A stretch of DNA of 64,000 nucleotides from Dictyobacter arantiisoli. Its GTDB lineage: Bacteria > Chloroflexota > Ktedonobacteria > Ktedonobacterales > Ktedonobacteraceae. Position 1 is the stretch's first letter; every line of letters begins with the position of its first letter. Under the pieces are notes generated by a model. That model made no database searches. It was not told where the DNA came from and saw only the letters and a list, made by a program, of their open reading frames with translations. The position numbers and the translations under genes are program-made. This document shows, one piece after another, positions 2,876 to 52,021 of the stretch. The DNA lies in contig NZ_BIXY01000023.1 in the NCBI RefSeq assembly GCF_008326305.1, forward strand, positions 1-64,000, written 5' to 3'.

Positions 2876-3047
2876 TAAAAACGTAGGTGCGGCGCGGCAC
2901 GAACGCATGTGAGTCCCGCATCCTCTTCATCGTACGATCATCTTGCCCCAGGGCTCCGTATGCAACTCCGGGCACAATGGTGGGGATATTTCGGTACGAG
3001 AATGGGAAAGCGGGACTCACGTTCGTTCGTGCCGCACCTACATTTTA
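2876..3047. repeat. Palindromic repeat, ACGTAGGTGCG family
   Basis: The left arm (about 2880-2938) and right arm (about 2990-3047) are imperfect inverted copies. Both begin with a variant of ACGTAGGTGCGGC, pass through a GTGAGTCCCGC block and end near a CGTAC core (CGTACGATC on the left, GGTACGAG on the right). The same plan recurs near 22.3, 23.7, 27.2 and 28.2-28.5 kb. No protein-coding potential is evident. It lies between the divergently placed starts/ends of the GH3 and methyltransferase genes, and its extent is estimated by eye. Confidence 0.75.
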
Positions 3048-22198: not shown

Positions 22199-22312
22199 AT
22201 ATTATGTATGAGATGTGATCCATATATCTCATGCATAGGATAAGGCTCCCCGTCCTTGCGGGCAATATCGCTAAAATAAGAAGAACATGGGAGAAAACTA
22301 CAATATGATGGA

Positions 22313-22800
22313 GAACGTAGGTGCGTGCCAAGGCCGCAGCCGAGGTGCGCTTTCCTCGTCCCGTACGATCCTCTCTCTCCAACGCTCTGTACCGTGCCTC
22401 AACACTATTTGTGGGATCAATGGCCTACGGGGGAGATATCCGTACGATGAACGGGAAAGCGCACCTCGGCTGCGGCCTTGGCACGCACCTACGTTTTTCG
22501 TCATGATTCTCGGTATCGAAGCGGCATTGCCCGTGAAGGGTGGCGCCTACGGGGGAGATATCCGTACGATGAACGGGAAAGCGCACCTCGGCTGCGGCCT
22601 TGGCACGCACCTACGTTTTTCGTCATGATTCTCGGTATCGAAGCGGTATTGCCTGTGAAGGGTGGCGCCTACGGGGGAGATATCCGTACGATGAACGGGA
22701 AAGCGCACCTCGGCTGCGGCCTTGGCACGCACCTACGTTTTTCGTCATGATTCGCGGTATCGAAGCGGTATTGCCCGTGAAGGGTGGCACCTACGGGTGG
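22313..22800. repeat. Three tandem 122-base palindromic repeats plus inverted copy
   Basis: Units of exactly 122 bases start at 22424, 22546 and 22668, each opening CCTACGGGGGAGATATCC, with a fourth broken after its first bases at 22790. Units differ by only a few bases. Each holds GTACGATGAACGGGAAAGCG and ends toward GCACGCACCTACG. An inverted copy of that block lies at 22313-22375 (beginning GAACGTAGGTGCGTGCC), so the whole can fold as a long hairpin. The array fills most of the gap between the transporter and DUF1838 genes and has no credible gene. Confidence 0.9.
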
Positions 22801-22861: not shown

Positions 22862-23659
22862 ATGTTGGATTTGACGAAAACTGAAAATGTGCTCCAGACT
22901 TTTGTGAAGGTGCGTGGATCACTGAAGCCAGAGGAGGTGGTCTTCTGGTGGAGTGGGAATGTCTATAGCGTGATTCCGGGCGAGAGGAATCGTTTGCTGT
23001 TCGCGATTGATGGCTATAATATTGGGCGCTGCGTCGCGGTCGAGGGCGGCTATCAGCATCTGATGCGCGAGATTACGCTGTACAAAGATCCCGCCAGTAG
23101 CGCGGTATTGGAGCGCTGGGATAATCCTTTTACGGCCTCTCAGGTAGAGGTAGTCCATGTCTGGAATGATCCGGTCAACCAGCAGTATCTGCTGCATGGT
23201 CCCTATGGTCCATTTACATTGCCAATCGTTCCTTTGAGCGAGGATCGCCTCTGTGCAAGCCTGGATATCATGCTGGCCTATCCTTCGGCCTTGCCGCGTG
23301 CGCACTATCCACAATATTCGCAGAGCGATCTCTATCAGGGCGCGGAACTATTCCAGTTCTTCTTTAGCCGCAGCGCGGCTGAAGATCCTGCCCGGGACTC
23401 AATCCCCTGCGATATTTCCTGGACACGCCTCGGTCCCTGGCTGCCCTGGATGGAGATGGCTGATCGCCCTGGCTCACTCTTGTATCAATGTAGTGGCTAT
23501 AAGCTGGACGGAGGCTATGCCGCCTTACCGGAGCATATCCGCCAATATGTTGAGCGGCGCCATCCAGAATATCAGCACGCCCCAACCGCATTCACCCGAC
23601 CCAACGAAACATCCTGGACCTATTTCAAAAAACAGCTCGCCCAAAGAACACAAACGTAG
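22862..23659 (+). CDS. DUF1838 family protein
   Basis: A 265-residue protein fitting DUF1838: FWWSGNVYSVIPGERNRLLF (residues about 28-47), then MREITLYKDPASSAVLERW, the NPFTASQVEVVHVWNDPVN segment and a C-terminal PWLPWMEMADRPGSLLYQ. The family has a beta-rich fold and no known function. This copy lacks a signal peptide, while many relatives carry one. It sits between the 122-base repeat array and a short palindrome, and faces the restriction-modification gene. Confidence 0.8.
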   Translation: MLDLTKTENVLQTFVKVRGSLKPEEVVFWWSGNVYSVIPGERNRLLFAIDGYNIGRCVAVEGGYQHLMREITLYKDPASSAVLERWDNPFTASQVEVVHVWNDPVNQQYLLHGPYGPFTLPIVPLSEDRLCASLDIMLAYPSALPRAHYPQYSQSDLYQGAELFQFFFSRSAAEDPARDSIPCDISWTRLGPWLPWMEMADRPGSLLYQCSGYKLDGGYAALPEHIRQYVERRHPEYQHAPTAFTRPNETSWTYFKKQLAQRTQT

Positions 23660-23697
23660 GTGTGGGCCGAGGTGATCGCACGGAGGTCCGCACCTAC
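23656..23697. repeat. Minimal member of the GTAGGTG palindrome family
   Basis: GTAGGTG (23656-23662) faces CACCTAC (23691-23697) with partly pairing GGCC/GGTCC between. It lies over the end of the DUF1838 gene and before the end of the convergent restriction-modification gene, where it could act as a transcription stop on both strands. Confidence 0.7.
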
Positions 23698-27156: not shown

Positions 27157-27345
27157 AAAACGTGGGTGCGTGCCAAGGTCCCAACCGTTTTCCTCTTCCT
27201 CGTATGCTCTGCCCGCCCGTAGCCCGTCGGCTCATCCATACCCCGACAGCGGTGCCAGGGGACAAGAGGGAGCGTTGGGGCGCGATGGTCGTACGAACAA
27301 CGGCAAAGCGCACCTCGGTTGCGACCTCGGCACGCACCTACAGTG
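27157..27345. repeat. RAYT-linked palindromic repeat, upstream copy
   Basis: A copy of the ACGTAGGTGCG-type palindrome: left end AACGTGGGTGCGTGCCAAGG near 27159, then a TCCTCTTCCTCGTA core, an interior CCCCGACAGCGGTGCCAGGG block, and a right end GACCTCGGCACGCACCTAC near 27330. The interior matches the copies at 28.23 and 28.38 kb almost exactly. It lies between the restriction-modification gene and the transposase gene. Confidence 0.8.
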
Positions 27346-27409
27346 TTGATCCCATACCTGCGTGCCCGTCGGCATCGAGGCCCACAAATGTGGTTGAGGT
27401 CCGTTACCC

Positions 27410-27458
27410 TCAATATCGCTCCAATAACGCGAATCTTGATGGAGAAGTGGAGGTGCGT
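27410..27458. repeat. Left member of direct repeats flanking the RAYT gene
   Basis: A stretch of about 49 bases beginning CCTCAATATCGCTCCAATAA and containing GCGAATCTTGATGGAGAAGT recurs at 28149-28197 with two differences or so. The two copies bracket the transposase gene at a distance of 739 bases. Confidence 0.85.
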
Positions 27459-27563
27459 GCCGAGGTCGCAACCCATTGCTCTGCATGTTTCCATTTTGGG
27501 ATGCGATCGATGTATAGAAAGAGTAGAAGGAATGTTGTGACGTGGTGAATTGAAAGGTAGTAG

Positions 27564-28124
27564 ATGAAATTGAAGAATCTTCCAAATCAGGGTTTTGTTC
27601 AAGTGAAAGCTCGTCGTCTGCCCCATTATGATTATAGCAATGATGGAGCTTATGCTCTCTGTATCTGTGCCCAGGACCGTCGCCGAGAACATTTTCTGGA
27701 CCTCCCCGAACTAAAAGAGATCCTCATTCAAGAATGGGAAAAGCTCCCACGGCGCTATAGCAACGCGTTTATCGATATCATCGTGATTATGCCCGACCAT
27801 TTACATTCTATCCTTTTGTTAGATTCTGCTCACAGTGAAAAACGCACAAGCGTATCCAATATTGTATGTGGTTATAAATCAAACGTGACGCGCCGCTGGC
27901 GTAATCTGTTGACCGCCAACAAGAATGAAGACGAGACGCTCAAAGAAGTATGGCAAATGAGCTTCTATGAACATATCATCCGCCAAGAAAATGATTTAGA
28001 AGCACAGCGCAATTACATGCGCAATAACCCCATCAAGGCTCAACTAGAACCTATACAAAATTACGTCTATAATGACCACCAATGCCCTTACGATTCCTGC
28101 GAGCATATTCCTTTCCCCGAATAA
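27564..28124 (+). CDS. REP-associated tyrosine transposase (RAYT, Y1/HUH)
   Basis: A 186-residue Y1-transposase-family protein. The HUH metal motif is seen in VIMPDHLHSILLL (His79 and His81), and the predicted nucleophile is Tyr135 in SFYEHIIRQENDLEAQ, followed by the family's NYMRNNP segment. RAYTs are single-copy relatives of IS200/IS605 transposases that cut and join single-stranded REP hairpins. Here the gene is flanked on both sides by related palindromes and by a 49-base direct repeat, the arrangement expected of a RAYT and its substrates. Length is normal and the catalytic residues look intact, so it may be active. An ATG at 27564 follows a GAAAGGTAG site. Confidence 0.92.
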   Translation: MKLKNLPNQGFVQVKARRLPHYDYSNDGAYALCICAQDRRREHFLDLPELKEILIQEWEKLPRRYSNAFIDIIVIMPDHLHSILLLDSAHSEKRTSVSNIVCGYKSNVTRRWRNLLTANKNEDETLKEVWQMSFYEHIIRQENDLEAQRNYMRNNPIKAQLEPIQNYVYNDHQCPYDSCEHIPFPE

Positions 28125-28148
28125 CAGCTCATCCCTAGCGTTGTGATC

Positions 28149-28505
28149 CTCAATACCGCTCCAATAACGCGAATCTTGATGGAGAAGTGGAGGTGCGCTT
28201 TCCTCTTCATCGTACGATCCGCTCGCCCGTAGCCCGTCGGCTCATCCATACCCCGACAGCGATGCCAGGGGACAAGAGGGAGCGTTGGGGCGCGATGGTC
28301 GTACGAACAACGGCAAAGCGTACCTCGGTTGCGACCTCGGCACGCACCTACGTTGTTGATCCCATACCTGCGTGCCCGTCGCCGTCGGCTCATCCATACC
28401 CCGACAGCGGTGCCAGGGGACAAGAGGGAGCGTTGGGGCGCGATGGTCGTACGAACAACGGCAAAGCGTACCTCGGTTGCGACCTCGGCACGCACCTACG
28501 TTGTT
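28149..28505. repeat. RAYT-linked palindromic repeats, two downstream copies
   Basis: After the right direct repeat (28149-28197), a full palindrome runs to about 28352 and a second, left-truncated copy runs from about 28380 to 28505. Both carry CGTCGGCTCATCCATACCCC and end CTCGGCACGCACCTACGTTG. The junction between them repeats the GCCCGTCG tetrads seen in the upstream copy. No gene is present in this 430-base gap. Confidence 0.85.
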
Positions 28506-51818: not shown

Positions 51819-51916
51819 CCTCCCAACTCACGCCAACATCCATAGAGCAAAGGAAAACAGTATCTGTAGCAGAAGTATAGCACACAAAAAAATGAATTAC
51901 ATGTAGCAGCCGCCAT

Positions 51917-52021
51917 TCACAGGCAATACCGCTCAAATACCGAGAATCATGATTGAGATACGTTTTTCGTCATTTGTGCTTTTCCCCTACATTCCTCGTT
52001 TTTGAGCGGCATTGCCCGTGA
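51917..52021. repeat. Inverted repeat related to the 122-base array
   Basis: TCACAGGCAATACCGCTCAAA (51917-51937) and the mirrored arm (52001-52021) pair with two mismatches. Between them lie CCGAGAATCATGATTGAGAT and CGTTTTTCGTCAT, which also occur inside the 122-base units near 22.5 kb in the opposite order. It sits between the membrane protein and the small paired genes. Confidence 0.7.

Follow-up and report, generated by a model that had tools for sequence, protein, structure and literature searches.

The window examined here, a 64-kb stretch of contig 23 in a Ktedonobacterales genome (Chloroflexota), carries a gene for a REP-associated tyrosine transposase (RAYT, or TnpA_REP) set among short, GTAG-tagged repeats of the REP type. 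The gene call rests on NCBIfam NF047646, Pfam Y1_Tnp, PDB 4er8 and alignment. The features of the locus at 27157-28505, followed by the other repeat sites of the window, are:

27157-27345, no strand: head-to-head REP dimer 1
27162-27186, plus strand: left REP of dimer 1, degenerate, with GTGG and a decayed hairpin
27308-27341, minus strand: REP of 34 nt with the consensus sequence, its GTAG at 27341-27338
27403-27457, plus strand: upstream copy of the direct repeat, made of the tail of a second GTAG repeat and the first 9 nt of a REP
27449-27473, plus strand: REP with GGAG in place of GTAG and a hairpin without its 3' half
27564-28124, plus strand: RAYT (TnpA_REP) gene, 186 aa
28143-28197, plus strand: downstream copy of the direct repeat, followed by a REP hairpin that a deletion has reduced to GGAGGTGCG
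28190 (approximate start)-28351, no strand: dimer 2, left hairpin deleted, right REP on the minus strand
28318-28351, minus strand: this right REP, 34 nt, 1 base off the consensus
28368-28505, no strand: partial tandem copy of the dimer
28466-28499, minus strand: REP of 34 nt within this partial copy, 1 base off the consensus
2883-3041, no strand: divergent GTAG...CTAC palindrome with a related TCGTACGA body
22305-22797, no strand: array of four REP cores, comprising one head-to-head dimer (22317-22492) and two more units, each a second-family repeat with a joined REP
22516-22542, 22638-22664 and 22760-22786, minus strand: copies of the second GTAG repeat
23656-23697, no strand: double-foot relative of the REP, 42 nt, GTAG...CTAC
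51903-51953, plus strand: copy of the second GTAG repeat family with no REP attached

An earlier note on this DNA had described a 49-base direct repeat and three copies of a palindromic element around the gene, and both are real. The direct repeat extends to 55 nt at 95%, and the three palindromic copies are 94-97% alike, the second without its left hairpin and the third partial. The relatives of the element that the note placed at 2.9, 22.3, 23.7 and 51.9 kb are also present, the last as a member of the second repeat family. REP core matches number 9 in the 64-kb window versus 0 in shuffled sequence, and the REPs that flank the gene are partly decayed. An Rfam search of 22-29 kb gave no match, and a tRNA search of the window found none.

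The 186-aa open reading frame scores 82.3 bits against NCBIfam NF047646 (REP-associated tyrosine transposase), a narrow margin over the cutoff of 80, and 26.1 against Pfam Y1_Tnp. The RAYT signature is an HuH motif with a catalytic tyrosine in Y---NP (PMC6006769), and the intact motifs of which the earlier note had spoken were found in the alignment as PDHLH (H79-L80-H81) and YMRNNP (Y151), the latter of the Y---NP type. A PDB search with the sequence returned E. coli TnpA_REP (4er8) as its sole match, and a profile built from 17 relatives placed 4er8, at 2.8e-10, above other transposase entries. Furthermore, the protein contains the stretch WQMSFYEHIIR (W130-Q131), whose WQ....EH..R aligns with W94, Q95, E100, H101 and R104 of the E. 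coli protein, the residues to which GTAG recognition has been tied (PMC6006769). The gene is single-copy in the 7.2 Mb assembly, although with 256 contigs a second RAYT in a gap is possible. As such, the family model, the HuH and tyrosine motifs, the low copy number and the flanking REPs all place the gene among the RAYTs. An AlphaFold2 model from the single sequence was unusable (mean pLDDT 38.7), and no relative turned up when GTDB contigs were scanned with the window RAYT.

We assign the protein to no single TnpAY1 subclass, because its motifs are mixed from 2.2, 2.4 and 2.5. It shares with subclass 2.4 (PMC6006769) the WQ pair, Y-x-x-NNP, a length near 194 aa and, in some of its relatives, double-foot REPs; however, it has DHLH rather than the required NH[IFV]H, and no REP is inserted within the gene. 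Subclass 2.2, that of E. coli, requires WE and YIHYNP (PMC6006769 Table 1), where WQ and YMRNNP are found here. The same genome also encodes an ordinary IS200-type Y1 transposase (L031; G000 contig 50:39728-40078), which at 136 bits lies far nearer the Pfam Y1_Tnp model than the window RAYT does.

The earlier note had proposed that the repeat be counted over the whole genome, and a 25-base REP pattern allowing up to 3 mismatches yields 142 matches in 7.2 Mb versus 0 in the reversed control. From 315 kb of this genome's DNA, 132 copies were recovered, 120 of them (91%) starting with GTAG, and the REPs are distributed over many contigs. The conserved unit is 34 nt, GTAGGTGCGTGCCGAGGTCGCAACCGAGGTGCGC, and its predicted single-stranded fold consists of GTAGGT followed by a hairpin whose stem (7+3 pairs) is interrupted by an internal mismatch of two bases and whose loop is CGCA. 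The folding energy of a single REP is ordinary for its composition (z -0.66), and support for the hairpin is therefore comparative: 4 of the 10 pairs have changed on both sides, with a covariation score above all 500 shuffles and every slid register. The mismatch reads GA/GA or AA/GA in 107/112 copies, and CT stands at the 3' foot of the hairpin in 108/112. Only 23% of REPs lie inside an open reading frame of at least 150 aa, compared to 78% of random positions. These short GTAG-ended hairpins, in high copy, mostly intergenic and often in inverted dimers, belong to the GTAG super-family of REPs. Head-to-tail tandem arrays of REP units, with periods of about 125 and 170 nt, were also seen on contig 45 (8510-8894; L049-L051) and contig 99 (22784-23155; L102).

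RAYT profile matches occur in 30 of 61 genomes, and many of the relatives' RAYT genes are flanked by other GTAG-tagged hairpins that differ from gene to gene. At the 21 RAYT loci with all or part of the motifs, GTAG stands at the repeat edge in 13, compared to 8 for the next tetramer and a mean of 2.2 for all 256; this count allows 0-3 bases before GTAG, a rule that was loosened after a strict result had been seen and that was applied equally to all 256 tetramers. Under the strict left-edge test GTAG is still the top tetramer, at 6/21, a count that is low because copies share chance bases before GTAG. None of the 7 loci with lost catalytic motifs has GTAG at a repeat edge. Two of the RAYT matches, L072 (G034) and L087 (G004), cross a single in-frame TAA close to where the tblastn match ends and may be copies in decay; L072 has YIDNNL at the Y---NP motif.

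The distribution of the repeats themselves is less uniform. The window REP was absent from all 60 relatives searched, which is weak evidence because these relatives are distant. The REPs associated with the RAYTs of G001 and G012 number 41 and 297 copies and occur in none of the other genomes, while those of G004 and G017 number 3 and 69. The G017 type is found as well in G005, G006, G007, G013, G018 and G029, and in the last of these, an order-level relative of 3.3 Mb (L180), 212 copies of the GTAGGGGCGACCCTTGCGGTCGCCCTT-type REP are present where a profile search detected no RAYT, so that REPs either persist after the loss of a resident RAYT or move about without one, or else these draft assemblies lack the gene. 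The earlier proposal to look for the repeat in genomes without the RAYT has thus had a mixed outcome: restriction to genomes with the cognate RAYT was seen for the window, G001 and G012 repeats but not for the G017 type. A synteny route to an empty site through murJ was dropped, because murJ is present twice in the genome and its orthologues are only 58-66% identical. Neither an empty site nor a new copy was seen. A murJ-like match in G004 (L173; C1:469772-471406) carries six in-frame stops and looks like a pseudogene or a region of assembly error.

A collinear RAYT-like gene (L074-L079 and L213-L217, at about 1501-1998 in L213-L217) that has lost both HuH histidines and the tyrosine is shared by six genomes of the genus to which Thermogemmatispora carboxidivorans belongs. 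Its dN/dS of 0.08-0.21 over five named Thermogemmatispora records indicates purifying selection, and therefore a protein that is kept; no GTAG repeats were found beside any of these loci. The gene is probably a domesticated, non-cutting RAYT.

We consider it very likely that the single-copy RAYT of the window and its cognate REP family together form a REPtron in a Ktedonobacterales genome, much as the earlier note had suspected, with the repeats as probable substrates. What recurs across the relatives is an enzyme-repeat partnership of a known type, with different hairpins. Binding, cleavage and movement of the repeats, and their spread by the present RAYT rather than by one since lost, are presumed. 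It could be argued that the repeats are instead REP/BIME elements kept for a cellular function such as transcript ends or supercoiling, and that the RAYT is a relic or a chance arrival now inactive on them; the strong extragenic bias, the persistence of REPs in genomes without a detected RAYT and the partial decay of the flanking copies would all be in keeping with this. We regard it as improbable, however, given that the motifs of the window RAYT are intact, that many RAYT genes of relatives are flanked by different GTAG hairpins of their own, an arrangement not expected from chance landing, and that such hairpins are absent at the loci with lost catalytic motifs.

The arrangement of the repeats bears upon a further possibility, that the palindrome of 120-190 nt is itself the mobile element, a MITE with long inverted ends that another transposase mobilizes, the RAYT being incidental. 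Head-to-head pairs with similar spacers are indeed common: neighbouring REPs form 30 such pairs (GTAG outward; 2 overlapping), the spacer is mostly about 60-110 nt, with CGTACGAT belonging to its body, and the complete palindrome at 27157-27345 has a better predicted fold than its shuffles (z -2.85). Against this, 53 of the 132 REPs are single, 13 neighbouring pairs are head-to-tail (and 3 tail-to-tail), and the GTAG tag, which is kept, also marks hairpins at other RAYT loci. The REPs fall into two subtypes according to the uppermost pair of the stem, T-A or C-G, and a dimer often contains both. At this column 27 of 28 dimers have a standard local pair in each REP, whereas pairing from arm to arm survives in 10 and is lost in 18. 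The conserved structure is the local hairpin and not the long palindrome, and we hold the MITE reading to be very improbable. The earlier note's view that these elements are far longer than classic REPs is not supported: the conserved unit is the 34-nt GTAG hairpin, and the 120-190 nt elements are head-to-head dimers in the style of REPINs or BIMEs. Mixed-subtype dimers (16 observed, 12.5 expected under random pairing, p 0.15) show no significant excess, and therefore no selection for them is claimed. Lastly, that everything from 27.1 to 28.5 kb moves together as an IS200-like insertion sequence with hairpin ends is scarcely credible in spite of the repeats on both sides of the gene, since an IS200/IS605 element is expected to show Y---Q (PMC6006769) and multiple near-identical gene copies, whereas here we find Y---NP, a single gene copy against more than 140 repeats, and a score that passes the RAYT model NF047646.

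The direct repeat that brackets the gene consists of the tail portion of a second GTAG repeat, joined to the first REP. The core of this second repeat, CACCCTTCACGGGCAATACCGCTTCAA, has 53 genome copies; GTAG lies just upstream in 27 of 32 readings, and 7 of the 32 run directly into a first REP, a composite that recurs in the array at 22.3-22.8 kb. No RAYT owning the second repeat was found. One may speculate that the mismatched 34-nt REP and the short CCC-TTCA-GGG repeat fused to it by its tail, unlike as these two GTAG repeats are, share a single RAYT, and that the mismatched REP of E. coli type had an independent origin in the Ktedonobacterales, where the hairpins of other RAYTs are mostly short and more regular; as a joint proposition we find this doubtful.

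In E. coli, TnpA_REP recognizes GTAG together with a mismatched single-stranded hairpin and cuts at an adjacent CT (PMC8266576). By analogy, each 34-nt REP of the window's genome would fold, once single-stranded, into a hairpin with an internal mismatch, and the RAYT would recognize its 5' GTAG and imperfect hairpin. Cleavage via Tyr151 might then fall at a nearby dinucleotide (CT in E. coli; here the hairpin has a CT at its 3' foot), and strand transfer could copy or rearrange REPs into head-to-head dimers and arrays and spread them between genes.

The E. coli REPtron and its BIMEs (4er8; PMC8266576) are similar in having a single RAYT with the same W, Q, E, H and R contact residues, a GTAG tag, an imperfect hairpin with a conserved two-base mismatch, and mosaic inverted pairs of REP subtypes. 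They differ in phylum, in the enzyme motifs (YIHYNP and WE, compared to YMRNNP and WQ here) and in the mismatch itself, which is AA/GC in E. coli, where it is required for activity (PMC8266576), and GA/GA or AA/GA here. The REPINs of Pseudomonas fluorescens are likewise doublets of two inverted REPs with a cognate RAYT (PMC3116915). Unlike those elements, the repeats here have spacers of mostly about 60-110 nt and many single copies. Their stems, in contrast to those of the REPINs, contain a mismatch. Within the Chloroflexota, GTAG-23 REPs have been published for Thermomicrobium roseum, and REPtrons for most species with GTAG repeats (PMC3733652); the T. roseum repeats are clustered at few loci in small palindromes, whereas those here lie on many contigs, with many head-to-head pairs. 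The earlier suggestion of a distinct RAYT-repeat pairing stands in a limited form, because GTAG REPs in Chloroflexota and RAYT-specific REPs have already been described (PMC3733652, PMC2817692). Within the open-licence literature, to which our search was confined, we found no report of GTAG REPs or REPtrons in Ktedonobacter.

Outside the Proteobacteria, these genomes offer a series of RAYT genes whose GTAG hairpins differ, among them a mismatched hairpin like that of E. coli, and this variety makes the co-evolution of enzyme and hairpin directly testable. Furthermore, the Thermogemmatispora genes, under purifying selection but devoid of catalytic residues and of REPs, suggest a non-cutting role for some RAYTs.
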